Below, one piece after another: positions 3,166 to 40,435 of a stretch of 64,000 nt of DNA. The DNA comes from Bacteroidota bacterium. Its GTDB lineage: Bacteria; Bacteroidota; Bacteroidia; Chitinophagales; LD1. A program made the position numbers and the translations under genes. Position 1 is the stretch's first letter. Each line of letters starts with the position of its first letter. The notes under the pieces were generated by a model. That model worked only from the letters and a program-made list of their open reading frames with translations, made no database searches and had not been told where the DNA came from. The stretch covers positions 62,001-126,000 of the forward strand of contig JAFDYN010000007.1 of NCBI GenBank assembly GCA_018267385.1, given 5' to 3'.

Positions 3166-3212
3166 ATATATTAGAGATGATATGCGATATTTTAAACGTA
3201 TAATTCTCAGAT

Positions 3213-4517: not shown

Positions 4518-4645
4518 TTGTAGCGTCACTAGTATTGACTTTATACTGTTGTTTTGATGTTCGTTTATCGGCTATCAGATTGCAGACATATTCGCTAGAT
4601 TCATACGCGTCCGAATCTATCCTGAGCGGATCTAAAACAAAAACA

Positions 4646-6073
4646 ATGAATCCTGGCAAAAAGCTTCTGACCATAGATAATGCCGAGCAGTTATCACTGA
4701 AAGAGATAAAGGACCTGTATAAGGCCTACATCAACCCTGTGTATGAGGATGTTTTCTCCACCTTTACCATCGGATCTGAGCTGGTAGAGCGCGCCGAAGG
4801 ACTCTGGCTGTATACGCGCAGTGGCAAGAAAGTACTGGATGCCACTGGTGGCCAGGGTGTGCTGAATCATGGTCATAATCATCCGCGCATATTGGCGGCC
4901 CGTATCCGCTACCAGGAGCGGCAGCGTATGGAGGTGCACAAGACGATCTTCTCGCCCTACCTGGCAGCACTGAGTGCCAATGTAGCAGCAATGCTGCCGG
5001 CGGACCTCAATTATCCATTCTTTTGCAACTCTGGAGCGGAGGCGGTGGATGGCGCCATCAAAATGGCGCATAAATATCATGCCGGTAGTCGCAACCATAT
5101 TCTCTACTCCGACATATCCTACCACGGCAAACTGCTCGGTGCCGGCAGTATCACCGGCTCAAAGGAGCTGCACTTCGGATTTCCTAAAATACCTGGTACA
5201 CGCGCTTATGAATATGGCAATATAACCTCTATCAGACAGGCGCTGTCTGAGCTGAGAAAGAAGGACGGTAGCTCAGATGTCTACGCCATCTTTCTGGAGC
5301 CATACTCCGCCAGTACAGGACGGAAATGTGATGGCGAATATCTCAGGGAACTGCGGCAGATTTGCGACCGGGAAAACATCGTATTGGTCTTTGATGAGGT
5401 TTTCACGGGGTGGTGCAAAACGGGCAATCTCTTTTACTTTATGGATCATGAGGTAGTGCCGGATATACTGACCACATCCAAATCCATAGGGGGAGGCAAA
5501 TCATCTATTTCAGCATTTGTGGCCAGGACACCTGTGCTACAGAAGACTTTTGGCAACCATCACGATTTTGTATTGCATTCGACCACCTATAATGGTTTCG
5601 GTGAGGAGTGTGCCACAGCTATAGAGGCGCTCAATATCATAGCCGATGATGACTACGTGAGTAAAAGCCGCCAAGCCGGCGCGATGATCTTAGAGAGGAT
5701 CGCAGCTCTGCAGATACGGTTTCCCGGCTTGGTCAGAGAGGGGGTAGGGCAGGGTACGCTATTCTCCATACGGCTAAATATCAAGACAGAGCTACTGGAG
5801 AGCGCCCTCCGCGTGCTACCGGTCAATATGGTAAAGCAAGACCGATTTGTATACCAGGTCATACTCGCGGGCATCACAGACTGGATGTTTTCCCACTACA
5901 ATGTTTACACTTCATTTACGCCGGAGGGTGTAAATTTTTCTCCGCCGGTGATCGTACAGCCTGCGGAGATAGAGTCTTTCTTTGCTGCACTGGAGGGTAC
6001 CCTGGAGGTAGGACTGCTGACCACTACTACCACTTTTATATCAAACAGACTATTCAAGTTTTTGAAAAAGTGA
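4646..6073 (+). CDS. Class III PLP-dependent aminotransferase
   Basis: A 475-residue cytoplasmic PLP enzyme of the ornithine/acetylornithine/GABA aminotransferase superfamily. Visible hallmarks are the phosphate/PLP region FFCNSGAEAVDGAIKMA (~126-142), the PLP-pyridine Asp in VFDEVFTGW (D250) and the Schiff-base lysine in TTSKSIGGG (K279). The frame runs open upstream to 4535, but the ATG at 4646 gives the normal family N-terminus and is preferred. It transfers an amino group to an aldehyde or ketone. In this neighbourhood it may make an amine on a lipid, sugar or metabolite precursor rather than serve arginine synthesis, since no arg genes are nearby. A 128-base gap separates it from the SGNH gene upstream, and 212 bases lie downstream before the TPR gene. 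Confidence 0.8.
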   Translation: MNPGKKLLTIDNAEQLSLKEIKDLYKAYINPVYEDVFSTFTIGSELVERAEGLWLYTRSGKKVLDATGGQGVLNHGHNHPRILAARIRYQERQRMEVHKTIFSPYLAALSANVAAMLPADLNYPFFCNSGAEAVDGAIKMAHKYHAGSRNHILYSDISYHGKLLGAGSITGSKELHFGFPKIPGTRAYEYGNITSIRQALSELRKKDGSSDVYAIFLEPYSASTGRKCDGEYLRELRQICDRENIVLVFDEVFTGWCKTGNLFYFMDHEVVPDILTTSKSIGGGKSSISAFVARTPVLQKTFGNHHDFVLHSTTYNGFGEECATAIEALNIIADDDYVSKSRQAGAMILERIAALQIRFPGLVREGVGQGTLFSIRLNIKTELLESALRVLPVNMVKQDRFVYQVILAGITDWMFSHYNVYTSFTPEGVNFSPPVIVQPAEIESFFAALEGTLEVGLLTTTTTFISNRLFKFLKK

Positions 6074-6285: not shown

Positions 6286-9171
6286 ATGCCGAAACAAAGA
6301 CAAAACAAACCCGCTGCCCCAACAGCAAAGAAGAAGAGTAGACAACTCAGCCAATATTATGGCGTGATCGTCTTTTTGCTGGCATTCTTGCTTTTCGCCA
6401 ATGCCATACCCAATGGCTATAACCTGGATGATGAACTGGTAACGCGCGACCACCGCTTTACGTCTCATGGCATATCAGCCATACCAGAGATATTGTCATC
6501 ATCCTACTACGAGGATAATATGGGCTATGCCTACGAGTATCGCCCCGTCGTATTGATATCCTTTGCCATAGAGCATGATATTTTTGGGGAGCATGCACCC
6601 GTCAGCCATTTTATCAATGTCCTCCTGTATGCACTGGCCTGCGGGCTGCTATATAAGGTACTCCGGCAGCTCCTGATCGCTTACCCGGACTATGTTTCTT
6701 TTGCCATAGCTGCGCTCTTTGCTGCGCATACGGCGCACACAGAGATAGTAGCCAGCATCAAAAACAGGGATGAGATATTGGCGCTTATTTTTGCATTGCT
6801 CACACTGCATGTGGCTGTCTACGCTGCGCGCTCGGGCAAGGCCTGGCTCAGTGTAGCCTGTGCGGCACTTTTCACAGTAGCCCTGATGAGCAAGACAAGT
6901 ATCCTTTCCTTGGTACTTATCATCCCGCTGGGGTTACTTTTCTTTACCGATGCTACTGCGACCATAGTACTGCTGATAGGGCTCGGTCTCCTGCTGCCAT
7001 CATACTTTCTGCTTAATATCGGCAGCGGGTTTGCAAAATTTGAAGTGATAGTAGCGCTGGGCGGTACCATTCTGGGTTTTACCGCTCTGAAAAACTATAA
7101 GACGATCCTCCAGACCGTGCGGCTCCTGGCGAGGCGGCTGAATAGCAGGATCAGCAGCAGTGTCTGGCACGGTGACTCCCCAAGCCTAGTGTTCGCAGAT
7201 GTGCGGACGTACAGGGACGTGTTTCGCGGTATGATGCCTGCCGATGAGATATGGGCCTGGAGGCCGGCGCTTTTTTGCCTGGCGCTGGGAGTGGTTTATT
7301 TTTTTCTGATGCTTCATGATTTTTTTATTCCGGCGCTCTTGCCACTCGGGATATTGGCAGTCCTGAGCCTGCGCGGTGGCCGGAGCCTATCGTGGTGGGC
7401 AGCATCTGTATTTAATATTTGCATTGCTATCAACTGTCTGTACCTTTTCCGGGATATGGGATATCTGCACGGATATGCGGGGCTGCTCTCTAAGTATCTG
7501 GCCTTTATGCTTGTCTTTGGCAGGCGGGATATCTTTTGGCCTACTCTTATTACTTTTTTGATGATTGCCTTTTTTGAGGGATACCGGGATCCAGTCGGTT
7601 TTTCTTTCTGGCGGGACAATACGATAAAGATGCCGGAGTGTATACTTACGCTACTGACGTTGCCGGCTATATTTCTTTTTGCAAATGCACGTGTAAGGCT
7701 ATTTCTGCTAGTACCCCTCGTCCTTGTGATCTTGTTTAATCTCTGGGAGATGTTTGGTCATTTTGTATTAGCGGATGGGATTTACACTTTTGGCCTGGCC
7801 GCATTTGTGGCAGCCGTATTGCTACTGCGCTATAGACGCGGCATACAGGTCACAGCAGGGGCTTTTGTTTTACCTGCTATGATCCTTCTTTTCATGACAA
7901 AAAGTATCCATGAAGAGAATATCCTGACTGCAAGCAGGGGGCTATACAATAAGAGTGTAACTGGGCTGCAGGCTGCCACAGAAAAAGTAAACCCACCAGT
8001 CATTGCCAATGCACAAAACAGGCCCCTGATATATACGGAGCAGTGCGTATCGGCACATGATCCCGCCAGTGTACGTATAGGCACCTCGCTCTCTATCGTG
8101 ATCCACTATCTGCAAAAAGTCATACTACCCTATCCACTTTCGTTTTACTATGGCTATAAAGTGATCCAGCCGCAGCGTATGTCAGATCCTATATCCCTGC
8201 TCAGCCTGCTGGTATACCTGGCCCTTCTGATAGTAGCGATGGCCACTATGCGCAGATGGCCCCTGGTCAGTTTTGGGGTGATCGTGTATCTCCTGGCTAT
8301 CATCAGCGTTTCTAATTATCTCTATTTCGTACCCGGTATGATGGGAGATCGCTTCCTGCTGCTACCCTCTCTGGGGTGGTGCCTGGCTGCTGCCGGGGCT
8401 ATCTACTATTTATTTGTGAGTGATAAAGAAGGGCGTGCTGGCTGGCAGTCTATAGCGCCGGCAGGCAGAGGAGTATTTATAGGCCTGCTGCTGCTCTACT
8501 CTGTACTGACAGTAGCCCGCAATGCAGACTGGAAGGATGACCTCACACTCTTCAGGCATGATATAAAATATGCTGACAACTCAGCCCAGGCGCACAATCT
8601 GCTGGCGCTACACCTCATGCAGCACGCCACAGCAGAGCAGGATCCCGCTCTACGCACCGCTATGATGAATGAGGCTTTGGTGAACTTCAAGAGGGCAGAG
8701 GAGATATATCCCAAGTTTTTTAATGTGGCCTATGACATAGGCAGGGTCTATCTCAACCTAAACCAACCTGACAGCGGCCTGCAGTCTATGCTGCGTGCCA
8801 TAGCTATAGATAGCACCTATCCCGACGTATACAAAACTGTATCTGATATCTACATTTATAAGAAGATGTATGCACAGGCGGCACCATACCTGGAGCGCCT
8901 CATAGTCCTGATGCCGCAAGACTATGAAAACTACAGCAAGCTCAGCTATAACTATTTTCTGCTAAAAGAGTATCAAAAGTCACTGGCCGTAAACAGAAAG
9001 GCTATCGAACTAATACCTGGCAACCCCAATCCCTATATCAATATCTACCGTACCTACACAGGCATGGGAGAGACGGATAGCGCCAGGGCTACCTTGCTTT
9101 CGGCCCGCAAGATATTCCCGGGAAACAGAGACATAGAATCTCTGCTCAATCAGACCGGCAGCCCCCGATGA
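6286..9171 (+). CDS. TMTC-like membrane protein with C-terminal TPR repeats
   Basis: A 961-residue protein with a basic N-terminus and many membrane segments (residues ~25-745), then about 200 soluble residues of TPR-type helices (e.g. NVAYDIGRVYLNLNQPDSGL and the repeat after it). The first loop contains NGYNLDDELV, the acidic motif expected of GT-C enzymes. The junction W-K-D-D-L-T-L-F before the TPRs is typical of the TMTC/O-mannosyltransferase-like group. The likely role is lipid-linked sugar transfer to a protein or glycan on the outer membrane face. A TACATTTA element (6220-6227) and a small hairpin (6256-6275) lie in the 212-base leader region. Assignment to a precise family is uncertain. 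Confidence 0.6.
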   Translation: MPKQRQNKPAAPTAKKKSRQLSQYYGVIVFLLAFLLFANAIPNGYNLDDELVTRDHRFTSHGISAIPEILSSSYYEDNMGYAYEYRPVVLISFAIEHDIFGEHAPVSHFINVLLYALACGLLYKVLRQLLIAYPDYVSFAIAALFAAHTAHTEIVASIKNRDEILALIFALLTLHVAVYAARSGKAWLSVACAALFTVALMSKTSILSLVLIIPLGLLFFTDATATIVLLIGLGLLLPSYFLLNIGSGFAKFEVIVALGGTILGFTALKNYKTILQTVRLLARRLNSRISSSVWHGDSPSLVFADVRTYRDVFRGMMPADEIWAWRPALFCLALGVVYFFLMLHDFFIPALLPLGILAVLSLRGGRSLSWWAASVFNICIAINCLYLFRDMGYLHGYAGLLSKYLAFMLVFGRRDIFWPTLITFLMIAFFEGYRDPVGFSFWRDNTIKMPECILTLLTLPAIFLFANARVRLFLLVPLVLVILFNLWEMFGHFVLADGIYTFGLAAFVAAVLLLRYRRGIQVTAGAFVLPAMILLFMTKSIHEENILTASRGLYNKSVTGLQAATEKVNPPVIANAQNRPLIYTEQCVSAHDPASVRIGTSLSIVIHYLQKVILPYPLSFYYGYKVIQPQRMSDPISLLSLLVYLALLIVAMATMRRWPLVSFGVIVYLLAIISVSNYLYFVPGMMGDRFLLLPSLGWCLAAAGAIYYLFVSDKEGRAGWQSIAPAGRGVFIGLLLLYSVLTVARNADWKDDLTLFRHDIKYADNSAQAHNLLALHLMQHATAEQDPALRTAMMNEALVNFKRAEEIYPKFFNVAYDIGRVYLNLNQPDSGLQSMLRAIAIDSTYPDVYKTVSDIYIYKKMYAQAAPYLERLIVLMPQDYENYSKLSYNYFLLKEYQKSLAVNRKAIELIPGNPNPYINIYRTYTGMGETDSARATLLSARKIFPGNRDIESLLNQTGSPR

Positions 9172-9252: not shown

Positions 9253-10134
9253 ATGATGATCTCAGAACAACCCTCAACTATCACAGGACCGCGTATCTTT
9301 TTCAATTTTATAGAAGTGGCTGCCGATAAAATGGCCGAGAACGGAGACCTGATCCGCAAGCTGAAAAGCGGTGCGATACATGGCTTCGTTCTGCGCAATC
9401 TTTTCTCAAAACAAGAGGTAGCAAATATGCTCAAAGCGCTGGAGGGCCCACTGGAGCAGGATGCAATGAATACCCCGTCCGGCAAAATGTTTCCAACCCC
9501 CTTCGCAATCATCACAAATGACGGAGAGAGGCTGGATGCCTACTATGAGTCGTTAAACACCATGCATAAGCTCATGGACCGCGAGCCGGCACTACAGCTG
9601 GTCAGAGACAGGATCAGTTCTTTTTTTCGTGCAGTGGCGGCAGACTATGAGGTGAGTGTACCGATCAATAAAATAAAAGGTATACCGGTCTCCGAGGGCT
9701 GCTTCCGGGTATTCTACAAGGATAGAGGAGGACTATTTGTCCACTGTGGTAATCTATTTCAGCAGCAATCTGAGTATTACTATTCACTGCTGGCCAATGA
9801 TATCGACATGAGTGATCAGCTCAGCTTTTTCTTTAACCTCCAGAATACTGAGGTGGGGGGAGAGCTCACGATCTATGACATGCTATGGAAGGATGTGGTG
9901 GCCAAAGCCACCCCAGACGAAAACGACTCTGTGATAGATAAAGATGGCAATACGATCTACCTGAAAGATGTAGAACAATTCACCGTAAAGCCGCAGCCGG
10001 GAGATATACTTGTTTTCTCGGGTGGCCCTATCTGGCACCGCGTAGAAAATATCAAAGGCGATACCCCACGGATCACGTACGGCGGCTTTGTCAACTTCTC
10101 CAATGATGGCAAGGAGATATTCTACTGGTCCTGA
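9253..10134 (+). CDS. WelO5-type Fe(II)/2-oxoglutarate halogenase-like protein
   Basis: From the ATG at 9253 the protein has 293 residues, against about 290 for WelO5/AmbO5, the carrier-independent aliphatic halogenases of cyanobacterial indole alkaloid pathways. From memory of those sequences the likeness runs through several blocks: FVHCGNLF, DMSDQLSFFF, VGGELTIYD, PGDILVF, HRVENI, and a C-terminal IFYWS where WelO5 ends IYYWS. The metal motif is H164-C165-G166 with a distal H262. WelO5 uses H164/G166/H259. Glycine instead of Asp leaves an iron site for chloride, the hallmark of Fe/2OG halogenases. The predicted reaction is C-H chlorination or bromination of a free small molecule; the substrate is unknown. 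It is convergent with the PhyH operon (10-base gap) and follows the TPR gene by 81 bases. A non-halogenating member of the family remains possible. Confidence 0.75.
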   Translation: MMISEQPSTITGPRIFFNFIEVAADKMAENGDLIRKLKSGAIHGFVLRNLFSKQEVANMLKALEGPLEQDAMNTPSGKMFPTPFAIITNDGERLDAYYESLNTMHKLMDREPALQLVRDRISSFFRAVAADYEVSVPINKIKGIPVSEGCFRVFYKDRGGLFVHCGNLFQQQSEYYYSLLANDIDMSDQLSFFFNLQNTEVGGELTIYDMLWKDVVAKATPDENDSVIDKDGNTIYLKDVEQFTVKPQPGDILVFSGGPIWHRVENIKGDTPRITYGGFVNFSNDGKEIFYWS

Positions 10135-10144
10135 TACTGGGCGC

Positions 10145-11857
10145 TCAGATCGCAGCCGTTTCTGATTTTAACCTGAGGGCTATGGCTGCCCGGTCTATCT
10201 GCGTATAGATGTGCTGCATCTCTCCCATTTTTATGTTTCTGCTGCCGGCCTGATTGGCCCCGGACCAGTCATCACGCAGGTAGTAGTCCGGTTTTTCCTC
10301 ATACATGCTGATCGCATCCCGGGCCGGGTCCTCACATAGAAAGCTATAGTACCTCGTAGCGGTATGCGTGAGCCTGATGGCAAATACCAGCCTGTCCTGA
10401 TCAGATTGATTGGGTACAGCATTATGTATCAGGCGCAGGTCAAAGAGGACCATCTGCCCTGCGCGCAGGTGCAGTACGCGACCTATACGGTCAAAGTCCG
10501 ATATGTACTGCGAGAATGGCCACTGTATACCATCTACATACACAGAATGGCAAAATTTGTGGCTCCCCTCCACGAGACAAAAGGCACCATTGCTTTCATC
10601 TACATCTATGAGCGGGCACCAGATACCATAGTGGGGCTCCAGATGCGTATTGATGATGAGAGAGGCATCATTGTGCCATGACAGGTCTCCTGTAGAGTGG
10701 GCATACTTCGTAAAAAAGCTGGCTATAGGCGTCTGGTAGTTTTGAAAGTAATGGTCCAGCCGGCTTCGTACTTTGTCAATGATAAAATTGTGGATATACC
10801 TTTTGGAATCGGCAGTAGCATGCTCCATAGGTGTAAAGCGGCCAATGTTAGTGCCGGGCGCCTTGAATAGCCGGTCATACTCCGCCTTGAGTTCTTCTAC
10901 CGTCTCAGCAGACAGGAAATCCAATACCACATAGCCGTCTTTCTTCATAGACTGCTCTGTATCTGCGTCACGCAGTATATGACGCTGTAGTGGCTCAAAG
11001 CCGGCGGCGTCCCCACCTATATGGGAGAGATACCTGGCGGCCAGATCCTGGCTGCTTATAGCTCTGTTTTCCAATAGCTGCAGGGGCGCCTCACTATGTG
11101 AGAGGTAGCTGTCTGGTATGCCGCCATTTTCCAGCTTATTGAGCGTAGTGAGAAATATCTCAGGAGTGATCCGGTATACGTCTGTTTTGCCTTCGGCTGC
11201 ATTTTTCTGAAAGTATGACAGAGGTGCATTTTTCTTGTAGATACTGATGATAGCTGACACCCTGTTTTGCGCAGAATGATTGGGATATGACGCGTGAAAA
11301 AGTGAATTGTGAAATACCAGGGCATGGCCCGGGGGGATGATCATATCTACGGTATATGGCCGGATGTGCTTGTCTGCTACTACATCCGGTATGCTATAGC
11401 TGCCGGAGCGGTAGTTGTCAAAAAACCGATGACTGCCGGGTACGACAAACATGCCCGCATTGTCAGGATAAGACAGATCTACAGGCACCCAGATCTGGTA
11501 GCTGGTGTATAGTTTCTCGTCTACTATATTCCAGTCCTGGTGCAGGGTCAGCTCTTTGGGATTATTTCCTTCCTTGACCATAAACCCGCCGATGAAAAAA
11601 TCAAAATCAGAAAACCACTCAGAGAGTGCCGGCATCACTATATCACGCAATGCGCCACTGAGGCGCAGATTTTTATCACCACCTATTTTGCTATGGCTGG
11701 CTATCAGGCCGGAGACATTATTCTGTATGGAGAACTCATGATACAGCTCTTTGATCTGGTCTATCTGTGCCTGCGAGAATAGCGGAGCCACACAGAAGCC
11801 CATATCGTCCAGGGCGGTCATATACTCGGGGTCTCTGATCAGAAGGTCTGGTTTCAT
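10145..11857 (-). CDS. Double-domain PhyH Fe(II)/2OG dioxygenase
   Basis: A 570-residue fusion of two phytanoyl-CoA dioxygenase-like domains. Domain 1 (~1-215) has H106-Q-D108, distal H188 and a 2OG-binding R199. Domain 2 (~300-510) has H395-N-D397, H478 and R489. Both facial triads are intact, so both halves should bind iron, which is unusual since PhyH proteins of ~280-320 residues normally stand alone. The two halves are clearly diverged and may hydroxylate two positions of one substrate. It is the last gene of a minus-strand operon with the PhyH gene at 11858-12745, whose stop codon is directly adjacent to this start, and the beta-hydroxylase-like gene above. PhyH enzymes hydroxylate lipids and small molecules; the substrate here is unknown. 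Confidence 0.85.
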   Translation of the reverse strand: MKPDLLIRDPEYMTALDDMGFCVAPLFSQAQIDQIKELYHEFSIQNNVSGLIASHSKIGGDKNLRLSGALRDIVMPALSEWFSDFDFFIGGFMVKEGNNPKELTLHQDWNIVDEKLYTSYQIWVPVDLSYPDNAGMFVVPGSHRFFDNYRSGSYSIPDVVADKHIRPYTVDMIIPPGHALVFHNSLFHASYPNHSAQNRVSAIISIYKKNAPLSYFQKNAAEGKTDVYRITPEIFLTTLNKLENGGIPDSYLSHSEAPLQLLENRAISSQDLAARYLSHIGGDAAGFEPLQRHILRDADTEQSMKKDGYVVLDFLSAETVEELKAEYDRLFKAPGTNIGRFTPMEHATADSKRYIHNFIIDKVRSRLDHYFQNYQTPIASFFTKYAHSTGDLSWHNDASLIINTHLEPHYGIWCPLIDVDESNGAFCLVEGSHKFCHSVYVDGIQWPFSQYISDFDRIGRVLHLRAGQMVLFDLRLIHNAVPNQSDQDRLVFAIRLTHTATRYYSFLCEDPARDAISMYEEKPDYYLRDDWSGANQAGSRNIKMGEMQHIYTQIDRAAIALRLKSETAAI

Positions 11858-12745
11858 TTATTGCTGCAGTGATTTGAAATATAAGAGGTTGATCTTGGTC
11901 ATCAGGCTCAGGTGGGGGTCTCTGCGGATCCAGCTTTTGAAGCTATCTACAGACGCCGGCTCAAATGCATGAGCTATGGTGTCTACCTGACGCGCATGGG
12001 CGGGCCTGCCATCAGCTTTGAAATAGTAGTAATCTTCCGGTGCCATTTTATACTTTTCTATCCGGGTGCTATCGCCCTGGGGCATATAGTAGTAGTGGAT
12101 ATCAGCCGGGCCGGAGCACATACCGAGTATGACGGCCACGCGCGGGCTACCGGTATGATTGGGCGCAGAGCCATGCAGTACGGCGTGATTTAGTACCACG
12201 CACTCACCTATATCTGTGACTATGTCAGTGAATAAGGAACGGATCGTGTCCTGCAGGTGTACGAAGGGCCTGGGATACTCGGGCACTACCCGCAGTGTTT
12301 TTTTGATCTTGTGGCTCCCCTTCAGTACTCTGAGCTGGCCGCTGTTTGCGTCTGTTTTTTGCAGCGGTATCCAGAGGTTGAAAGAGCACTCTGATGGCTC
12401 ATCTACAAAGGTCAGGTCCTGATGTGGCATCAGTTCGCTATTGTCACCACTGTTTTTGATCAGATAGTTAGAGATCAGCACCTGGTAGTTTTGAAAGACA
12501 GCCTGTACCTGGTCCATGATGGTCGTTTTTACCAGTTGGTCCAGGGCTATGAGCAGGTCGGCATTGCCAGTCTCTACAGAGGAGTAGAGGCTCTCGGTCT
12601 GCATAGCTGCTTCGTGCTCTGCACGCACACCCTCATAGTAGTCCCGGAGCACCTGTATCTGGGCGGGTGTGAAGAGCTTTAGCTTCACATACCCGTCACT
12701 CTCAAAGGCAGCCTGGAGTTTTTCATCTTTGAATATCGGGCGCAT
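11858..12745 (-). CDS. PhyH-family Fe(II)/2OG dioxygenase
   Basis: A 295-residue single-domain phytanoyl-CoA dioxygenase-like protein. The iron triad is H108-Q-D110 (in MPHQDLTFVDE) and H191 (VLNHAVLHGSAPNH), with the 2OG-anchoring Arg at ~202. The double-stranded beta-helix core is framed by W-I-P-L and L-K-G-S-H strands typical of the family. It is the middle gene of the minus-strand oxygenase operon; its stop codon touches the start of the 570-residue double-domain protein. Hydroxylation of a free metabolite or lipid is likely, but nothing in the sequence defines the substrate. Confidence 0.85.
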   Translation of the reverse strand: MRPIFKDEKLQAAFESDGYVKLKLFTPAQIQVLRDYYEGVRAEHEAAMQTESLYSSVETGNADLLIALDQLVKTTIMDQVQAVFQNYQVLISNYLIKNSGDNSELMPHQDLTFVDEPSECSFNLWIPLQKTDANSGQLRVLKGSHKIKKTLRVVPEYPRPFVHLQDTIRSLFTDIVTDIGECVVLNHAVLHGSAPNHTGSPRVAVILGMCSGPADIHYYYMPQGDSTRIEKYKMAPEDYYYFKADGRPAHARQVDTIAHAFEPASVDSFKSWIRRDPHLSLMTKINLLYFKSLQQ

Positions 12746-12852: not shown

Positions 12853-13620
12853 CTATTTGTAAAAAACGGCAAATCTCTTTTGTACGGGCAGGAAGAGATA
12901 CCACGCCAGCGCCAGCACCTTCAGGCAGGCTGTGAGCACGGGTGATGGCAAAAAGCTGATGACCGGAATCTTTTCATCTATGTATTTGATGGTGAGTGCG
13001 CCAAGTGATTGTGCGCAGACCCAGTTTCCTTTTTTTACAAAATCCGGATGTATCACATCCAGTATGAGCAGAAACCGGCGCTGGCTGGTATCATTCCATG
13101 TAGTATGCATGTGGGCATCACTGAACATGAGCAGCCGCCCGGTGTGATAGCCGCGCTTCTCATCATCCACCTGTATGCCGCAGTCCAGGTACTGGCCGGG
13201 TATCTGCAGGCCTAGATGGCAGCGGATGATGGCATTGGTCTCACCGATATGGGGCAGCACACGGCTGTGCGGCTCCAGCACGGTGATACCTGCAAAGGAG
13301 ATGTGAGGTATAGTCTGAAGCAGGGCAAAGGTCTTTGGGTATTTCAGACAGTTTTTGTGATTGTACCAGCGGAAGTTGAAGAAATAGAAATTTCTCCAGG
13401 CATCGGGCGCACTGAGATAGGGCGGGTTAAGGTTAGGCGGCATAGCCTCATGGCCCGAGGTGAGTCCGCTGATCTCCTCTATGATCTCGGTATATCTGCT
13501 CTCCAGCATAGGCACCCACGGATATGCAGCGGGGTCATAGTAGCGTGGATGGGTCCCATCATACCGGGCCTCTTTGAGAAAGTAGCGGTCCGGCTCCCGT
13601 ATATGTGCTGACTGTGCCAT
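12853..13620 (-). CDS. Aspartyl/asparaginyl beta-hydroxylase-like Fe/2OG oxygenase
   Basis: About 255 residues from the ATG at 13620; the frame extends further upstream without a good start and overlaps the divergent DUF1800 gene, so the longer version is not favoured (a TTG at ~13653 is an alternative). The domain matches the aspartyl/asparaginyl beta-hydroxylase family: H124 (LEPHSRVLPHIGETNA), H172 in MHTTWND and R182. This family binds iron with two His and no carboxylate. A C-terminal hydrophobic stretch ends in LPVQKRF. The paralogue at 17842-18621 has the same ending (LPVQRRL), suggesting shared membrane association. It is the first gene of the minus-strand oxygenase operon. Bacterial members hydroxylate lipids or peptides; the substrate is unknown. 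Confidence 0.75.
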   Translation of the reverse strand: MAQSAHIREPDRYFLKEARYDGTHPRYYDPAAYPWVPMLESRYTEIIEEISGLTSGHEAMPPNLNPPYLSAPDAWRNFYFFNFRWYNHKNCLKYPKTFALLQTIPHISFAGITVLEPHSRVLPHIGETNAIIRCHLGLQIPGQYLDCGIQVDDEKRGYHTGRLLMFSDAHMHTTWNDTSQRRFLLILDVIHPDFVKKGNWVCAQSLGALTIKYIDEKIPVISFLPSPVLTACLKVLALAWYLFLPVQKRFAVFYK

Positions 13621-13724
13621 GAGGTAGTGAAGGTAAGGATATAATCCCGGCAATGAGAAGAGATCATGACGGAGGTCATTATTTCCGTCTTGTCTTGCGG
13701 CCTGCCGGTCATTACATTTAAAAG

Positions 13725-13732
13725 GAAAGATA
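13725..13732 (-). promoter_or_regulatory. Possible -7 element of the oxygenase operon
   Basis: Read on the minus strand this is TATCTTTC, a 7/8 match to TAnnTTTG. It sits in the AT-rich divergent gap between the beta-hydroxylase-like gene and the DUF1800 gene. The long distance to the chosen ATG (13620) leaves an untranslated leader or an upstream non-ATG start. Confidence 0.3.
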
Positions 13733-13794
13733 TATAGCTGAATTTTATTTTTTAAAAGCGCCTGCAAGTAGCTAAATTGGCTGCTAAACGAGAC

Positions 13795-15402
13795 ATGTCT
13801 ATGGCCTCTATAGGCACATATAGTCTGAAGCCATATAAAAGTGACCTCAGCGAAGAAGACCTGCTGCACCTGCTGCGCAGATGCCTCCTCGGTGCGGGTC
13901 ATAGCGATGTATCTTTCTATAAGGGAAAATCTTTAGGCCAGTGCCTGGATGGCCTGCTGCGCCCATCTCCCACACCGCCACCTGTGCGGGAGGAGCTCTC
14001 AGACGGTGTAGATCCCTATGTCAAACTCGGTGGTACGTGGATACATGCTCCCTACGAGAGTGAGGAGGTAAACTACCGCCGCAAGATCATGTTTCGTATG
14101 TGGTGGACCGGCCTCATATTGAATCGCGACCACTCTATCACAGAGAAGATGACACTTTTCTGGCACAATCACTTTGTGACAGAGACCGATGTAGTAAAGG
14201 ATAGCCGCTATTCTTACTACTATGTAGCAATGCTGCGGTCTCATGCGCTTGGCAATTTCAGACAGCTGATACGCGAGGGTACCACCAGCCCCGCTATGCT
14301 CGTGTACCTGGGTGGCAATACCAATTTTAAATCAGCTCCAAATGAAAACTATGCCCGTGAGCTGATGGAGCTGTTTACACTGGGCAAAAGCCCCGACATA
14401 CACTACACAGAGGAAGATGTAAAAGCGGCAGCACGCGTACTGACAGGATGGAAGGATGATAAAGACAAATGTGTGGGCCTATTCGATCCGGCCCAGCACG
14501 AGCCAGCAGACAAGCATTTCTCTGCCTTTTTTGATCACCACGTCATAAAAGGCCGTGAAGGCAAAGAGGGTAGCGACGAGACAGATGAACTGATAGACAT
14601 GATCCTGCGCAAAAAGGAAGCTGCAAAATATGTCTGTCGCAATCTGTACAGGTGGTTTGTATATGCTCATATAGATGATACCATAGAGCGCGAGGTCATA
14701 GCGCCGCTGGCAGATATTTATTTTCAAAATAATTTTGAGATTGTACCGGTGCTCAGAGCACTACTGGGCAGCGAGCATTTCTTTGACCCGGCTGTACGGG
14801 GTGGCATAGTCAAAAGCCCGGCAGACTTTCTGCTCGGCTCTACACTGGAGATAGGAGTGACTGTGTACCTGGCTCCGGAGAAGACATATACGACGCTCAA
14901 AGAATGCCACGAGCCATGGCTGCAGTACCACCTGAACTGTGAGGACCTGTCTCAGCGCATAGGAGATCCCCCCTCTGTGGCTGGCTGGCCGGCCTACTAT
15001 CAGGCACCCAACTATCACCGCTGGTGGGTAAACTCTGCCAGTCTCAGTATGCGCAAAAAGCTAAGTGATGGCCTCAGCACGCATGAGGGGCTCATATTCA
15101 ACGGATATAGCATCAGTTTTGATTTTCTGAATTTTTCACGCCAGTTTGAAAACCCGGGAGACCTGCAGGGATTCATAGCCCAAGTGACCAAACGGCTATG
15201 CGCTGTGGCACCTGCACCCTCTACTATAGACCAGCTAAAGGGCCTGCTCGTATCAGGCATGGATACCGACTACTACTGGCAGAAAGCATGGAAGAAACTA
15301 GAAGACAAACCTGATGACGCAGAGACGAAGGATGTACTGGATGCGCGTCTCAGGATGTTTTACGCGCGGCTGCTGAGCCTGCCGGAGTACCATGTGATGT
15401 GA
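13795..15402 (+). CDS. DUF1800 family protein
   Basis: About 535 residues from the ATG at 13795; a second ATG at 13801 and an in-frame TTG at 13777 are alternatives. It carries the family signatures MTLFWHNHFVTE (~120) and NENYARELMELFTLG (~190), plus C-terminal W-x-G-W-P-A-Y. The biochemical function of DUF1800 is not established. It is almost always paired with a DUF1501 gene, as here (28-base gap to the next gene). No clear signal peptide is visible at the chosen start. Its presence between two beta-hydroxylase-like genes could be incidental, but the pair is on the same strand as most of the glycan genes. Confidence 0.85.
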   Translation: MSMASIGTYSLKPYKSDLSEEDLLHLLRRCLLGAGHSDVSFYKGKSLGQCLDGLLRPSPTPPPVREELSDGVDPYVKLGGTWIHAPYESEEVNYRRKIMFRMWWTGLILNRDHSITEKMTLFWHNHFVTETDVVKDSRYSYYYVAMLRSHALGNFRQLIREGTTSPAMLVYLGGNTNFKSAPNENYARELMELFTLGKSPDIHYTEEDVKAAARVLTGWKDDKDKCVGLFDPAQHEPADKHFSAFFDHHVIKGREGKEGSDETDELIDMILRKKEAAKYVCRNLYRWFVYAHIDDTIEREVIAPLADIYFQNNFEIVPVLRALLGSEHFFDPAVRGGIVKSPADFLLGSTLEIGVTVYLAPEKTYTTLKECHEPWLQYHLNCEDLSQRIGDPPSVAGWPAYYQAPNYHRWWVNSASLSMRKKLSDGLSTHEGLIFNGYSISFDFLNFSRQFENPGDLQGFIAQVTKRLCAVAPAPSTIDQLKGLLVSGMDTDYYWQKAWKKLEDKPDDAETKDVLDARLRMFYARLLSLPEYHVM

Positions 15403-15430
15403 TCTGTAAACGATAGAGAATAGAAAGAAA

Positions 15431-17841: not shown

Positions 17842-18621
17842 ATGACTACCCAGAAGTTCATATGGCCCGAAGGAGAGGAGCTGGTCTACCTCAGACCGCC
17901 TAAGGAAGAATATCACGGAAGGCTGCCCAACTTCTACCCGCCGGAATGGTTTCCGGAGCTAAATCTACTAAAGGAAAACTGGCAGGCCATAAGGGATGAG
18001 ATACTGGCCTATGAGCGTGAGCGGGGCAATATAAAAGGTATGGGCTCCTACTCTCCGGCACAGGTGAGTGGTACCGACTGGAGCACTATCAACCTGATGA
18101 GTTACATGGTACTCTTTCACAAAAACAGGGAGAGGTTTCCGGTGCTGACGGCGCTGACAGACCGCATACCAAACATCACGACCGTGACCATCAGTGTGCT
18201 CTCTCCACATACAGAGATCAAACCACACTATGGAGATACCAACGGTGTGATACGGGCCCACGTGGGCCTGATCGTGCCGGAGCCGTATCCGGCCATAGCG
18301 CTGCAGGTGGGCGATGAAGCACAAGGATGGGCAGACGGTGAGGTCATGGCATTCACCATCGTGCAGCGGCACCTGGCATGGAACCGATCAGACCACAAGC
18401 GCTATGTACTGATCATAGATTTTGTACCGGAGGTACTGGCCGACCGGCAAACGGAGATATGCCGTAAGACGCTGGGCAGCCAGACATATATTTTTCTGTA
18501 CAAGCGCATCGGTGTCTTGCGCCATTTGCCGGAGTTTCTCGCCGGTTTTTCTTGTGCGTTCTTTTCGTTCCTTTGGTGGTTTCTGCTGCCGGTGCAGCGG
18601 CGGCTGAAACTTTTCCTGTAG
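17842..18621 (+). CDS. Aspartyl/asparaginyl beta-hydroxylase-like Fe/2OG oxygenase
   Basis: A 259-residue paralogue of the gene at 12853-13620. The conserved core shows H129 (TEIKPHYGDTNG), H177 (QRHLAWN) and R187, with V-G-L between them; this family binds iron through two His only. The C-terminus is hydrophobic (~228-250) and ends LLPVQRRLKLFL, matching the LPVQKRF tail of the paralogue. Residues 1-110 are specific to this protein. It follows the flippase-like gene closely. Expected activity is hydroxylation of a membrane-linked or peptide substrate at the cytoplasmic face; the substrate is unknown. Confidence 0.8.
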   Translation: MTTQKFIWPEGEELVYLRPPKEEYHGRLPNFYPPEWFPELNLLKENWQAIRDEILAYERERGNIKGMGSYSPAQVSGTDWSTINLMSYMVLFHKNRERFPVLTALTDRIPNITTVTISVLSPHTEIKPHYGDTNGVIRAHVGLIVPEPYPAIALQVGDEAQGWADGEVMAFTIVQRHLAWNRSDHKRYVLIIDFVPEVLADRQTEICRKTLGSQTYIFLYKRIGVLRHLPEFLAGFSCAFFSFLWWFLLPVQRRLKLFL

Positions 18622-18640: not shown

Positions 18641-19642
18641 TTATGCAGTAGCGGCCTTGCCGGGTTTTTTATATTCCAGGATATCTTTTTTCCATGGGAG
18701 GAATGTATTGATAAGCGGAGGTTTGGTAGCCAGCAGGAAGCAAAGGAATAGCATTTTGGAGGAAGTGAATCCCGCTTTGAGCGTAGCAAATTTGTAAGCC
18801 ACACCGATACTATCGGTCACATTCTCTACCTGGTGCCATACCAGAGACGGGAAGTACAGCACGTCTCCGGGGTACAGCAGTACCTCTGTACGCTGCGCCA
18901 GCTTGAGCAGTGGATATCGGGGGTCATCCAGCTTGTATGGATCTGCATCACTATAGAAATAATTGTACCGGCGCGGCCTCACACCTATAAAGAGGCGGTG
19001 ATTGGTCGGATAAAACACCCACCGCTTGATACCCTCTATCTGCACAAAGATCGTGATAGCGAAACCATCATGGATCGGCGTCATGGTATTCTTGCCGCCC
19101 ATAAAGAAATAATTCAAGTCATTTTGTGCGCCCGCAGGTCGAAATTTGCGCAGCCAGCTATAGTCAAAATCCTGACGCAGGCCTGACTGCTCATCTACGA
19201 TACGGGAAAACTTGAGATAGCGCTTAGACCCCTGCTTCATATTGTCTATGTACTCACTAAACTTGACTACATCATAAGCCTGGTCTGTATCTTTGATGAG
19301 ACCGGGGTTATTGACCAGTGTGACATCCTCATGTCCGTATTTTTCTTTGAAGTAGTCAAAGTTCCACTTGCCCTGGCATGGCCAGTCTGACGCAGCACCG
19401 CGAAAAACGATAGGGCAGTGATCGTCTTTCACGGGATCAGTATACTCTCCCTTTTTATATTCTATCACACGAAAATTGTCCGTATTGGGATGCTCAGAGG
19501 CATACTTTTCTATTTCCCGGTACAGTTTCTTTTCTGTACTGCCAAAGGCTTTTTGATACCATTTTTCACCCAGGATATGTTCGGCGAAAAAGAGAAAATT
19601 ATACTGCAGCCATTGGCTGGTCTTGACATTGCTCGGCTTCAT
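18641..19642 (-). CDS. JmjC/cupin_8-type oxygenase-like protein with HxG motif
   Basis: A 333-residue protein of the cupin_8 (JmjC, FIH-like) group. The core aligns well: P-I-V-F-R-G (~77), the first metal strand MTPIHDGFAITIFVQIEG (187-204), K-R-W, then YPGDVLYFPSLVWHQVEN (257-274) with distal His H270. In typical members the strand reads H-x-D. Here the residues are H191-D192-G193, so the carboxylate position is Gly; counting from the invariant Gln at 201 supports this alignment. The protein may therefore be a halide-accepting enzyme, use D192 atypically, or be inactive. Residues ~294-310 are hydrophobic. It is convergent with the beta-hydroxylase-like gene (19-base gap). The iron ligand set needs structural proof. 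Confidence 0.7.
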   Translation of the reverse strand: MKPSNVKTSQWLQYNFLFFAEHILGEKWYQKAFGSTEKKLYREIEKYASEHPNTDNFRVIEYKKGEYTDPVKDDHCPIVFRGAASDWPCQGKWNFDYFKEKYGHEDVTLVNNPGLIKDTDQAYDVVKFSEYIDNMKQGSKRYLKFSRIVDEQSGLRQDFDYSWLRKFRPAGAQNDLNYFFMGGKNTMTPIHDGFAITIFVQIEGIKRWVFYPTNHRLFIGVRPRRYNYFYSDADPYKLDDPRYPLLKLAQRTEVLLYPGDVLYFPSLVWHQVENVTDSIGVAYKFATLKAGFTSSKMLFLCFLLATKPPLINTFLPWKKDILEYKKPGKAATA

Positions 19643-19751: not shown

Positions 19752-20531
19752 TTACTTAAAGAGGTTCAGGAACCTTCGCACCAGGCCACCGATCATATAG
19801 AGCAGCTCATGTATCAGAATGAGTGGACCTGGACTGTGAGAGAGCAGGAACCTGAGGTGGCGCCAGCCGTCTCTCCATGGGCGCAGATGTGAGGGCCGCC
19901 CCCTGCCATCAGGAGAGAGCACCACCGGCACCTCTGTGATGCGCAGGTGATGGATAGTGGCGGCTACGATCATCTCAGAGGCAAACTCCATACCTGTGGT
20001 AGCAAGGTCCAGATCGAGCAGCGCCCGGCGCCGGAAGGCCCTGAGGCCACAGTGAAAATCACCTATTTCGCTGCGGATGAAAAGGCGGCCCAGCGTGGAT
20101 AGTATAGGATTGCCCACATACTTATTCATCATAGGCATAGCCCGGGGCTTGATCTCTCCCTTGAATCTATTGCCTATGACCAGGTCATAACCCTCTCTTA
20201 GTTTGACCACAAAGGGATCTATCTGGCTGAAGTCATAACTATCATCTGAGTCTCCCATCACTATATACTGCCCTCGTGCGGCTCTAAATGCGCCCATCAG
20301 CGCCCTGCCGTAGCCACGCTCAGGAGTCTCTATCACGGTCACGCCGCAGTCTCTGGCTATCTGCTGCGATCCATCCGTACTGCCATTGTCACCTATGATG
20401 ATCTCACCGCTCACACCACTGGTAGCCAGATAGAGTTTGGCCTTTTGTATGCAGCCTTTCAGTGTGCTTGCTTCATTGAGGCAGGGCATCACGATACTTA
20501 ACTCTATTTCTTCCGGTCGGTCAGGGAGCAT
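19752..20531 (-). CDS. Family 2 glycosyltransferase (DPM1-like)
   Basis: About 259 residues from the ATG at 20531; the frame also offers a TTG at 20579. It is a GT-A enzyme of the GT2 family: LSIVMPCLNEASTL at the N-terminus, IGDNGSTDGSQQIA, and the metal/nucleotide motif GDSDDSYDF. The overall sequence resembles dolichyl/polyprenyl phosphate mannose or glucose synthases, with a hydrophobic C-terminal region of about 20 residues. It would charge a polyprenyl phosphate with a sugar for use by the GT-C-like proteins in this locus, an inference from context. It is divergent from the ABC gene at 20754. Confidence 0.8.
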   Translation of the reverse strand: MLPDRPEEIELSIVMPCLNEASTLKGCIQKAKLYLATSGVSGEIIIGDNGSTDGSQQIARDCGVTVIETPERGYGRALMGAFRAARGQYIVMGDSDDSYDFSQIDPFVVKLREGYDLVIGNRFKGEIKPRAMPMMNKYVGNPILSTLGRLFIRSEIGDFHCGLRAFRRRALLDLDLATTGMEFASEMIVAATIHHLRITEVPVVLSPDGRGRPSHLRPWRDGWRHLRFLLSHSPGPLILIHELLYMIGGLVRRFLNLFK

Positions 20532-20753
20532 GAATAGCCGCTGCTGTATTTTAGGTGAATAAGCTAAAGTTATGGCCAAGATTCTTAATATTTTTCAATT
20601 TGCGAAGACTCCGGCCTCCTGAGCGAAAATAAAAGCAGCGTAGTGGCACTATCACCGTCTATGCGCACATATATATGCGATCAGAGATATGCTATCTGAC
20701 ACATGAGGATGCAGATGTGCGAAAGAAGCTGTAAAATTGTAAAGCTACGATAC

Positions 20754-22049
20754 ATGACCGGTACGCCTGCCATAGTGATACAAAATCTCAGCAAAAGGTA
20801 TAAGCTGAAAACGGAAAGCCAGATGGCTGCCGGTGAGGCAGACTTTTATGCGCTGCGCGATGTATCTCTGGAGGTGCAAAAGGGAGATATGGTAGGTATC
20901 ATAGGCAGCAATGGATCCGGCAAGAGTACACTACTCAAGATCCTCAGCCAGATCACCCGGCCGAGTGAAGGAGAAGTGCGGTTTTATGGTACAGTCTCAT
21001 CTATCCTGGATATAGGCACAAACTTTCACCCGGACCTGACCGGGCGCGAAAATGTGACCATGCACCTCCGTCTGAAGGGAGTGTCTCCCGGTGAGTTTGA
21101 TCAGCGCTATGCAGCCATACATACTTTTAGTGAGATCGGTTCTTTCTTTGACCAGCCGGTCAAGATCTATAGCAGTGGTATGTTTCTACGTCTCGCCTTT
21201 TCTGTCGCCTTTCACCTGCATGCAGATATACTCCTGCTGGATGAGGTCCTGTCTGTAGGCGATGAAGGTTTCCGCCTGAAATGCCAGGATATGCTGCAGC
21301 GGCTGGCTACTGAGGGCAGGACCATCCTCTTCGTCTCGCACAGCAGGAATGAGGTGCTGGAGCTCAGCACGAAGTGTCTGTGGCTGGACAAGGGGATGGT
21401 AAAAAAATATGATAAGCCTGCCTTTGTGCTGGCAGAGTATTTCTCTATGCATCAAGACAACTATGACCAGCGCAAGCTCGTGGTAGATATAGACAAGACT
21501 GCGGGCCAGGAGCATATAGAGCAAAATGGGAGTATAGACCTGACGTGGGAGGCAGATGTAGCTCCGGGCAATGATGCCTTCTCCATCAGAGAGCTATCAG
21601 TGACAGGAGCGGTGAAAGGGGAACCTATATACAATACCGGCCCCATAAAGCTGAAGTTTGTAATAGACAAAAAGAAAAAGGGAGTATATGTAGGCGCTTT
21701 TTTCTTCCTGCAGGATGTTTTTCATCAGTCGGTCATGGTAGGGCATCTGCTGAATAATACTGAAAAAAAAGACCTGAGCAGTCAGTGGAAAGATCAGGTA
21801 GGCCTGATGGAGATATGCTGCGAGATACCGGCCGATTGGCTGCTGCCGGGCAAGTATTACCTGTTTCCGCGCTTTGGAGTGGAGAGCGGGGAGTGGACGG
21901 CTACTTCAGAGGAGGGTATTCGCTTTTCAGAGAAGCTAAACTTCACGGTGACACCACACCCCTCCTATACGGACTATATCGGCGATCCCGGCAAGGGCGC
22001 CCTCAGGCCTGGCCTGGCCTGGCGCATCTCCCCTATAGGGGGCGACTGA
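20754..22049 (+). CDS. Wzt-type ABC transporter ATP-binding protein
   Basis: About 431 residues from the ATG at 20754; the upstream in-frame ATG at 20703 adds 17 unlikely residues. The ATPase domain shows Walker A GSNGSGKST (51-59), signature YSSGMFLRLAF, Walker B DILLLDEVLSVGDE and the switch His in LFVSHS. A C-terminal beta-rich domain (~260-431) is the type that binds the non-reducing-end cap of O-antigen in Wzt proteins. It exports a finished polysaccharide or teichoic-acid-like polymer with a Wzm/TagG-type permease. No such permease lies in the window, so it must be encoded elsewhere. The C-terminal domain may recognise a cap made by the nearby modifying enzymes (inference). Confidence 0.85.
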   Translation: MTGTPAIVIQNLSKRYKLKTESQMAAGEADFYALRDVSLEVQKGDMVGIIGSNGSGKSTLLKILSQITRPSEGEVRFYGTVSSILDIGTNFHPDLTGRENVTMHLRLKGVSPGEFDQRYAAIHTFSEIGSFFDQPVKIYSSGMFLRLAFSVAFHLHADILLLDEVLSVGDEGFRLKCQDMLQRLATEGRTILFVSHSRNEVLELSTKCLWLDKGMVKKYDKPAFVLAEYFSMHQDNYDQRKLVVDIDKTAGQEHIEQNGSIDLTWEADVAPGNDAFSIRELSVTGAVKGEPIYNTGPIKLKFVIDKKKKGVYVGAFFFLQDVFHQSVMVGHLLNNTEKKDLSSQWKDQVGLMEICCEIPADWLLPGKYYLFPRFGVESGEWTATSEEGIRFSEKLNFTVTPHPSYTDYIGDPGKGALRPGLAWRISPIGGD

Positions 22050-23773: not shown

Positions 23774-23861
23774 TTTACAATCGTGAGGCAGATCCCCGCA
23801 CCATCTGTATCAGGTGATAGTGCAGCCACCTGTATACTCAGCAAAATATAGAATAATTGCC

Positions 23862-23869
23862 TATTTTTC
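23862..23869 (+). promoter_or_regulatory. Putative -7 element of the PhyH gene
   Basis: TATTTTTC is a 7/8 match to TAnnTTTG. It ends only 7 bases before the ATG at 23877, predicting an almost leaderless message. The PhyH fold starts right at that ATG, so a later start is unlikely. Confidence 0.35.
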
Positions 23870-23876
23870 GGATACA

Positions 23877-24767
23877 ATGAAGCTCAATCAGCTATTTGCA
23901 GATGTAGCCGCCCAGGAGCAGTTTGAGCGGGATGGATATATAGTGATAGATCTCACTACGCCGGAAATCGTCCGTCATCTGGGCCGGCGGTTTTATGATC
24001 TCAATCCCGATATCCCTGAGGGGTTTTCATCAGGCGCCACAGAGGTAGAGGAACGGGTCAAAAAAGAAATTTTTGCTGAGATGGACGCGCTGCTCGGACC
24101 TCCGCTGGATCGTACTTTTATCAACTATAAAAAGCTCGGTAGCACCTTTCTCTGCAAAGCCCCGGGAGACAAAGGACACGTGAATGTACACCAGGACTGG
24201 AGTGTGGTAGACGAGTCGAGATATGCCTCGGCGACTGTATGGATACCCACAGAGCCGGTAGATGAGCGCAACGGTGCCCTGCGGGTGCTGCCTGGTAGCC
24301 ACTTGTTCTTCAATAAACTACGCAACACTCATATACCTGTGAGCTATCGCGGTAGTGAGCAACTCATCTGGGATCACATGCTCACAGTGCCCATGCAGCC
24401 GGGTCAGGCTTTCGTGCTCAATCATGCTGTGATACACGCATCATCTGCCAATAGAACCGAAAGAGCCCGTGTGGTCATAGCATACGGCATCACCTCTGCC
24501 CAGGCCCAGCTCACATTTCACTACAGGGGGCCCTCACAGCCCGGAGACCTGCTGGAAAAATTTGAAATGCCGGATGATTTTTTTCTCAGGTATCATAATA
24601 TCGGCGAGCGGCCGCTGGTAGGTGTCATGACTGGTCAGTTTGACTATCCGGTGCCTGCAGTGAGCAGAGAGGAAATCTATGGTATGATAAGGCGTGAGAG
24701 GGAGAGGAGACGGGATATTCCTTACTTCCGTGAGCACTGGATAGAGCCTCATGCATCTGCTTTATAA
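23877..24767 (+). CDS. PhyH-family Fe(II)/2OG dioxygenase
   Basis: A 296-residue phytanoyl-CoA dioxygenase-like protein from the ATG at 23877; the open frame upstream (GTG at 23814) adds an unlikely N-terminus. Iron ligands are H105-Q-D107 (VNVHQDWSVVDE) and H187 (VLNHAVIHASSAN), with R198 for 2-oxoglutarate. It also has V-W-I-P, V-L-P-G-S-H and a D-D-F-F-L near the C-terminus seen in other PhyH proteins here. Its stop codon is directly followed by the ATG of the SGNH hydrolase, so the two are co-translated and may act on the same product. Confidence 0.85.
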   Translation: MKLNQLFADVAAQEQFERDGYIVIDLTTPEIVRHLGRRFYDLNPDIPEGFSSGATEVEERVKKEIFAEMDALLGPPLDRTFINYKKLGSTFLCKAPGDKGHVNVHQDWSVVDESRYASATVWIPTEPVDERNGALRVLPGSHLFFNKLRNTHIPVSYRGSEQLIWDHMLTVPMQPGQAFVLNHAVIHASSANRTERARVVIAYGITSAQAQLTFHYRGPSQPGDLLEKFEMPDDFFLRYHNIGERPLVGVMTGQFDYPVPAVSREEIYGMIRRERERRRDIPYFREHWIEPHASAL

Positions 24768-38598: not shown

Positions 38599-39438
38599 TC
38601 AGAGCAGATGAGAGACCTTTTCTATGATTTTATGCTTCCAGAATGAATTCATGCGAGCATCTATGTAGGTATCGGCGGAAGGCTTCATTTTGAGTACGGG
38701 CTCTCCGTATTGTGGCCTGCCGCAGTGGGTATAATGGATGAAAAAGTCTGGTCCGGGCACATCGTATAGCTCTATCTCAGAGCCGGGCTGGCAATAGTGC
38801 AGCCAGGGGCCTTCTGCAGGAGCTAAAGATAAGTTGAGCGCCGGGCGTGGCTGGCCGCTTTTATTGGCCGGAGAGAAATGGAGCAGCGCATGATCATACA
38901 CGACCACATCTCCTGCACGCATTGAGAGTAGCTGCCCATAGCGCCGCTCCCACAGAGGTTCATTGTCGCGCGTGCTCTGCAGTATCTGCGGACCCCGCAC
39001 CTTGTTGGTGATCTTGTGCGATCCCTCTATGACTCCAAATCGGCCATTCAGCCGGGTCGTATCTACCAAAGGTGCCCAGACGGCTACTGAGCGGTACTGA
39101 TTTTCATCTACATAGGCCCAGTCTGCATGCAGGTCCATAGATACATTGGGGTCCGGGTTTTTGATCATAAAGTTGCCAAACAGCGGCGTGTAGCTGTCAA
39201 GATGACGCGCTACGGCCGGGAAAACGACTTCAGCCAGAGTGTCATGTACGTGTTTTTTGTATGACAGGTCATCGCTGAAGTGGCTCGTGTGAAAGGGGCC
39301 GGCGTACTCTTCCTCATGAGATGCCAAAAGCTCCCTGAGCAGCTGCAGGCGGGCAGCATCGAGTAGGGAAGGGAAAATAATATATCCCTTCTGCTCAAAT
39401 TCCTTTTGCAGCCTGCTATCCAGAAATGTCTGTCGCAT
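38599..39438 (-). CDS. PhyH-family Fe(II)/2OG dioxygenase
   Basis: A 279-residue single-domain PhyH protein. Iron triad: H104-A-D106 (MDLHADWAYVDE) and H187 (YDHALLHFSPAN), with the 2OG-binding Arg at ~198. It has the usual V-W-A-P and V-I-E-G-S-H strands and the D-F-F-I near the C-terminus shared with other PhyH members here. It lies 5 bases after the PhyH gene at 39444-40370 on the same strand, so the two form an operon. The substrate is unknown. Confidence 0.85.
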   Translation of the reverse strand: MRQTFLDSRLQKEFEQKGYIIFPSLLDAARLQLLRELLASHEEEYAGPFHTSHFSDDLSYKKHVHDTLAEVVFPAVARHLDSYTPLFGNFMIKNPDPNVSMDLHADWAYVDENQYRSVAVWAPLVDTTRLNGRFGVIEGSHKITNKVRGPQILQSTRDNEPLWERRYGQLLSMRAGDVVVYDHALLHFSPANKSGQPRPALNLSLAPAEGPWLHYCQPGSEIELYDVPGPDFFIHYTHCGRPQYGEPVLKMKPSADTYIDARMNSFWKHKIIEKVSHLL

Positions 39439-40370: not shown

Positions 40371-40435
40371 TATCCTCTTGGTGTCTTCCAAATATAAGCA
40401 ATAAGTGTGTTAGGATACAGAATGAACTTTGTCAT

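Follow-up and report, generated by a model that had tools for sequence, protein, structure and literature searches.

A stretch of 64,000 nucleotides of the Bacteroidota contig JAFDYN010000007.1 (positions 62,001 to 126,000, hereafter the window) carries, at 9253..10134 on the forward strand, a gene whose 293-residue product is a full-length, genuine member of the WelO5 family (PF22814) of Fe(II)/2-oxoglutarate (2OG) enzymes and likely a halogenase. On balance, we favour the reading that this predicted Fe(II)-, 2OG- and halide-dependent enzyme installs chlorine or bromine at an unactivated carbon, likely of a surface glycan or glycolipid building block. The evidence comprises family membership, the predicted fold, the replacement of the iron-binding carboxylate by glycine, conservation, purifying selection and an oxygenase-rich locus.

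Family membership and gene integrity

The protein matched the entire PF22814 profile (positions 1-277 of 277; E = 1.1e-52, 179.7 bits; curated cut-off 27 bits), and phmmer against WelO5-type chains gave a best E-value of 7.5e-22, with 69 of 263 aligned residues (26%) identical to WelO5. These searches support the WelO5 kinship that a first-pass annotation had proposed from the sequence, and the structure prediction suggested there yielded a model sharing the fold of WelO5, with the glycine in the column of WelO5 Gly166. The reading frame and motifs it had named were likewise recovered on translation, with HCG starting at residue 164 (the Gly being residue 166), SDQLS at 187, GGEL at 202, PGDIL at 249, HRV at 262 and YWS at 291. 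Its remark that the iron-site residues are numbered as in WelO5 holds for the first His (164) and the Gly (166), while the second His is residue 262 here and 259 in WelO5. A chance motif match was rejected in view of the full-length profile and fold matches. No NCBIfam family matched at E 0.01, hence not the SyrB2-type profile TIGR01762 either, and PF05118 (Asp_Arg_Hydrox) was not among the three Pfam matches at E 0.01.

An alternative in-frame TTG start lies 60 bases upstream of 9253 and would give 313 residues, but the ATG at 9253 is favoured because most listed homologues measure about 290 residues. Comparison with a 93%-identical relative in locus L016 gave a dN of 0.038 and a dS of 1.14, the latter being saturated against the three farther relatives tried; by this measure, the gene is under purifying selection. 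Together with the intact frame, this led us to reject a pseudogene. The gene is the only PF22814 copy in its genome. About 15 bases 5' of its start codon, TATCTTTG at 9231-9238 matches the Bacteroidota -7 box, whose consensus we take to be TAnnTTTG, and the gene may thus possess its own promoter; a scan for sigma-70 promoters and terminators returned no signal clearly exceeding shuffled sequences.

Within the same family, by the search tool's own grouping, 18 of 30 genomes carry PF22814, the window's included, and these belong to the 26 of 298 positive genomes in the order. Among 395 genomes drawn from the phylum there were five, with a full-length match only in the window's own and partial, weak matches in the other four; none was found in 14 control genomes. 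The relatives are named at their source partly as Chitinophagales and partly only as Bacteroidetes, and include two metagenome bins titled Chitinophaga pinensis and Chryseobacterium gleum. Of the 120 homologues listed, P0116 and P0119 carry the automatic name 'Hapalindole-type alkaloid chlorinase', and the kinship had therefore already been flagged by automatic annotation. In the open-licence PMC literature, the titles and abstract openings of the matches listed, the best 11-20 of each search, describe no Bacteroidota WelO5 homologue and no halogenated surface glycan, and searches for WelO5 with Bacteroidota and for 'Hapalindole-type alkaloid chlorinase' returned nothing. Relative to these matches, a Bacteroidota glycan locus appears to be a new setting for a WelO5-type enzyme that is likely a halogenase.

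Active site

An alignment of 117 rows, consisting of the window protein and 116 of the best 120 of 139 matches, revealed that His164, Cys165, Ser191, His262 and Arg273 are invariant, while residue 166 is Gly in 116 rows and Glu in one (P0114). The window protein thus displays the arrangement HxG...H without a carboxylate ligand, with H164-C-G166 and H262 forming the predicted iron site. In halogenases the carboxylate is usually replaced by Gly or Ala (PMC8407142, PMC13244439). Ser191 aligns with the second-sphere Ser189 of WelO5 (numbering of the PDB chain: H164, G166, S189, H259), which helps to favour chlorination according to a quantum mechanics/molecular mechanics study cited in PMC13244439.

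By analogy with characterised enzymes, the predicted ligands of the PF22814 protein are Fe(II), 2OG and halide, with Gly166 leaving an iron site vacant for uptake of the halide; a ferryl intermediate would then abstract hydrogen from the substrate, and Cl or Br would rebound in place of OH. Cryptic halogenation occurs in other 2OG halogenase pathways, and the halogen might likewise serve here as a leaving group that is later removed, so that no halogenated end product would remain, which we regard as very unlikely, although nothing speaking against it was found, no search having been aimed at a dehalogenating or ring-closing partner.

Several observations weigh against halogenation. Of the rows labelled Asp or Glu, 9 of 11 retain the equivalent of Ser189, whereas 2 of 45 Gly rows lack it, so that it is not diagnostic; Ser191 was accordingly rejected as a halogenase marker, being common to most carboxylate-labelled rows. 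Two Asp_Arg_Hydrox proteins of the window bear HxG, which we take to be their iron motif. The hydroxylase AspH, too, has a two-His iron site with water bound there and apparently no halogenation of its substrate (PMC13168262), and HxG alone does not prove halogenation. Family, fold, Gly-for-carboxylate exchange and locus as read in the first-pass annotation thus stand, whereas its step from the glycine to halogenation goes further than AspH and the HxG-bearing Asp_Arg_Hydrox proteins allow.

The same observations would fit an enzyme that hydroxylates or desaturates its substrate with two His ligands and a water in the manner of AspH, without ever transferring halide. Carboxylate-bearing PF22814 members in similar loci argue in the same direction, since hydroxylation may be what the family has in common there. 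This is countered by the position of the Gly in the WelO5 Gly166 column, the fit of the model to the WelO5 fold, and the retention of Gly by 116 of 117 rows even though other parts of PF22814 have acquired Asp and Glu. We therefore judge a hydroxylase or desaturase to be unlikely and retain halogenation as the preferred function. For the glycine position, a structure of the WelO5 G166D variant exists (5IQU).

Natural Gly, Asp and Glu forms

A tree of 58 rows was built with the motif columns excluded and without L063_11, a weak match with HMD. The outgroup, L036_2 and L037_2, was labelled Asp by its HFD motif, though the aligner put another residue at that position, and L055_1 and L057_9, whose motif could not be safely aligned, received a separate label. 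In this tree, 36 rows including the window protein share one branch (100/100), comprising 35 Gly rows and one Glu row, and WelO5 falls outside this clade. The distribution of Gly and carboxylate requires four changes, with the two ambiguous rows uncounted, and at least two for the Gly label follow from the starred branches alone. One starred branch (99/95) nests P0114 (HCE) with two Gly rows, which identifies it, as judged from the tree, as a natural ligand change inside the Gly clade; the Gly row closest to it is P0102 (92/72). The deep order is unsure, since several long branches meet.

Both forms also occur side by side. G020:C51 has an HCG copy at 9397-10248 and an HAD copy at 14398-15192, G483:C125 an HCG copy at 1438-2202 and an HCE copy at 3180-3965, and G460:C11 two HCG copies and one HCE copy inside 331976-348819. 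As locus entries, Gly and Asp/Glu copies on one contig within 17 kb are found in L050 (9214-10248 and 14398-15291), in L064 (1438-2253 and 3177-3998) and in L065 (3923-4738 and 9473-10327) together with L048 (1498-2313). The Asp/Glu members, having a facial-triad carboxylate, are probably hydroxylases, and we infer that in such pairs the Gly form would halogenate and the carboxylate form hydroxylate. Three tandem PF22814 genes in G009:C112 (L058 6351-8962) have HNG instead of HCG and form their own branch, and a copy broken by stop codons shares contig G581:C103 with an intact one (L051 5928-6895).

Genomic neighbourhood

Glycan-related and PhyH genes had been noted around the gene in the first-pass annotation, and both kinds were indeed found. 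Adjacent and convergent to the PF22814 gene lies a two-domain PhyH 2OG oxygenase with HxD in both domains (10145..11857, reverse strand), followed by a further PhyH oxygenase with HQD (11858..12745, reverse) and an Asp_Arg_Hydrox oxygenase with HxG (12853..13902, reverse). A second Asp_Arg_Hydrox oxygenase with HxG occupies 17842..18621 (forward); both are OlsC/LpxO-like, although they score under those NCBIfam cut-offs, and may point to acyl-chain hydroxylation in the same locus. Three of the four Asp_Arg_Hydrox matches of the genome lie in the window or just before it. Also encoded are a Cupin_8/JmjC-like protein (18641..19642, reverse) and three PhyH proteins with HQD (23814..24767, forward), HAD (38599..39438, reverse) and HQD (39444..40391, reverse). 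A DUF1800/DUF1501 gene pair at 13777-16693 sits within the oxygenase cluster and recurs in L011, L016 and L054.

Upstream of the PF22814 gene are a class III aminotransferase (4535..6073, forward) and, as its immediate neighbour, a 961-residue protein with a TPR tail and a PMT_2 match under the cut-off (6286..9171, forward). Downstream follow a family 2 glycosyltransferase (19752..20579, reverse), a TagH/TarH-like ABC ATPase of the polysaccharide-export type with a C-terminal extension (20703..22049, forward), a 572-residue protein (22055-23773), a KASIII gene (26256, 16 kb from the PF22814 gene), a protein that lacks a Pfam match and matches the N-acetyl sugar amidotransferase chain 8wex over residues 28-114 (41582..42772, forward), and a carbamoyltransferase (43588..45213, forward). 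The region upstream of the window contains an ABC-2 permease, more PhyH genes, a UbiA-type gene and B12-radical-SAM genes, with three B12-radical-SAM-like genes in succession at L083 13325-18217; Pfam confirmed the two that were scanned.

The PhyH neighbours were themselves considered as SyrB2-like halogenases, but HxD is present in each of the window's six PhyH domains; two of these neighbours have weak TIGR01762 matches far under the cut-off. Across the loci, 163 of 173 distinct PhyH-like open reading frames (ORFs) have some HxD/E triplet, seven have none and three only HxG/A, as counted with a permissive pattern not tied to any position in the protein and with some of the ten exceptions being short or cut pieces. 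The genome concentrates 14 of its 17 PhyH matches (domains) in C25:40742-102253, that is, in 61.5 kb of 4.55 Mb.

We then compared 31 locus entries over about 10 kb around each PF22814 gene, a span that is shorter for L002, L003, L004, L007, L012, L014 and L015; L014 and L015 represent one genome, and L050 was entered twice for its two genes. L014 is a 160-residue gene piece at a contig end and stands outside the tree, but was counted with the clade because of its 68% identity and HCG motif. The 16 clade loci (15 genomes) include PhyH in 13, B12-radical-SAM-like genes in nine, a relative of the 572-residue protein in nine, a TagH-like ATPase in six and Asp_Arg_Hydrox in five, although this span excludes the ATPase of the window and the radical-SAM genes upstream of it. 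The radical-SAM count uses a profile of our own making; in four such neighbours (two in L004, one each in L005 and L008), Pfam placed Radical_SAM above the cut-off in all four and B12-binding above it in two and just below it in two. PhyH and the TagH-like ATPase were present in five and four, respectively, of the six other Gly entries and in nine and seven of the nine Asp, Glu or ambiguous entries. With counts this similar, Gly and carboxylate forms lie in surroundings of one kind. L016 keeps the gene order of the window at 73-95% identity over the compared stretch.

The association with PhyH also has exceptions that count against the proposed pathway. Three of the 16 clade loci (L008, and L014 and L015 of one genome) have no PhyH within the span, the nearest matches in L008 being 13 to 20 kb away. 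PhyH was found in all 17 PF22814-bearing genomes checked (7-23 matches each), which were drawn from the 25 other than the window's own, but such clusters were likewise present in 9 of the 12 family genomes that lack PF22814 (0-18 matches), so that the link is one of place and not of need. Other genes near PF22814 in relatives encode a multihaem-cytochrome-like protein (L005 13207-14373), a SoxA/TsdA-type cytochrome c (L009 11651-12643) and an FGE-sulfatase-domain protein (L004 6811-7767).

Substrate

As compared by alignment, the lid stretch 213-236 of WelO5 is unlike that of the window protein, and 33 of 36 clade rows have Phe where WelO5 has V81 in its pocket. Residues 215-232 of WelO5 form a helix that helps to hold the substrate (PMC5480362). 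Since position 81 and the alkaloid-contacting lid both differ, a hapalindole is an unlikely substrate. Lys218 lies in the lid stretch of the clade itself and does not vary across the 117 rows. The clade would thus appear to share a conserved substrate that differs from that of WelO5 and is likely more polar. The 2OG oxygenases, B12-radical-SAM genes and polysaccharide-type exporter point to a surface glycan or lipid that is modified at a saturated part. Such a substrate would be produced by the locus itself through its PhyH and LpxO-like oxygenases, B12-radical-SAM and sugar-modifying genes and TagH-type exporter ATPase, and it is from these neighbouring genes that the first-pass suggestion of a halogenated envelope compound would follow.

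The KASIII gene, however, is preceded by a 75-residue ORF (26029-26256) with a phosphopantetheine match (E 0.16), possibly an acyl carrier protein, which may speak against a glycan and for an acyl-carrier substrate. The same chemistry could then act on a carrier-bound acyl group or on a small secreted metabolite, for which the radical-SAM and UbiA-type genes upstream of the window also argue, as does WelO5 itself, which works on free alkaloids (PMC8407142). Set against this, the phosphopantetheine match lies under the Pfam cut-off (12.7 versus 20.8 bits), and none of the 31 locus entries has KASIII within the span, a weak test that missed even the window's own gene. The TagH-like ATPase, found within the span at six of 16 clade loci and just outside it in the window, has as its top-listed solved relatives largely teichoic-acid and O-antigen export ATPases. 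A non-glycan substrate is thus possible but rather doubtful, and a surface glycan or glycolipid remains our preferred assignment.

Comparison with known systems

A few alkaloid pathways of cyanobacteria are the known source of WelO5-type enzymes, which attract study as catalysts of C-H halogenation, so that a conserved Bacteroidota clade in glycan loci would broaden both the enzyme supply and the view of cellular halogen use. Only tentatively do we propose that members of one Bacteroidota order make halogenated surface glycans or glycolipids in which halogen and hydroxyl are switched by Gly, Asp or Glu at one residue. If this were true, a WelO5-like clade would chlorinate or brominate an aliphatic site on a polymer destined for export, in loci that also employ many hydroxylases and B12-radical-SAM enzymes, the Gly and the carboxylate version being neighbours in some genomes. 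That Gly, Asp and Glu all occur naturally at this residue among family members in comparable loci would offer a comparison for the question of halogenation versus hydroxylation in 2OG enzymes.

With the cyanobacterial hapalindole-type halogenases WelO5, WelO5* and Wi-WelO15, the window protein has in common the Pfam family, the whole fold, H164-x-G166, the distal His, the Ser189 equivalent and the C-terminal YWS; AmbO5 was likened through descriptions in papers only and not by sequence. It differs from WelO5 in Cys for Val at 165, Phe for V81, an unlike lid 213-236, the low identity of 26%, a separate clade and its glycan/oxygenase locus. The Asp/Glu members of the same order share the family and the neighbourhood of PhyH and TagH-like ATPase genes, but retain the facial-triad carboxylate. 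AspH resembles the window protein in its two-His iron site (PMC13168262), and LpxO/OlsC through relatives with HxG in the same locus that belong to another Pfam family. The SyrB2-type, carrier-dependent chlorinating enzymes (TIGR01762), finally, are likewise aliphatic 2OG halogenases.
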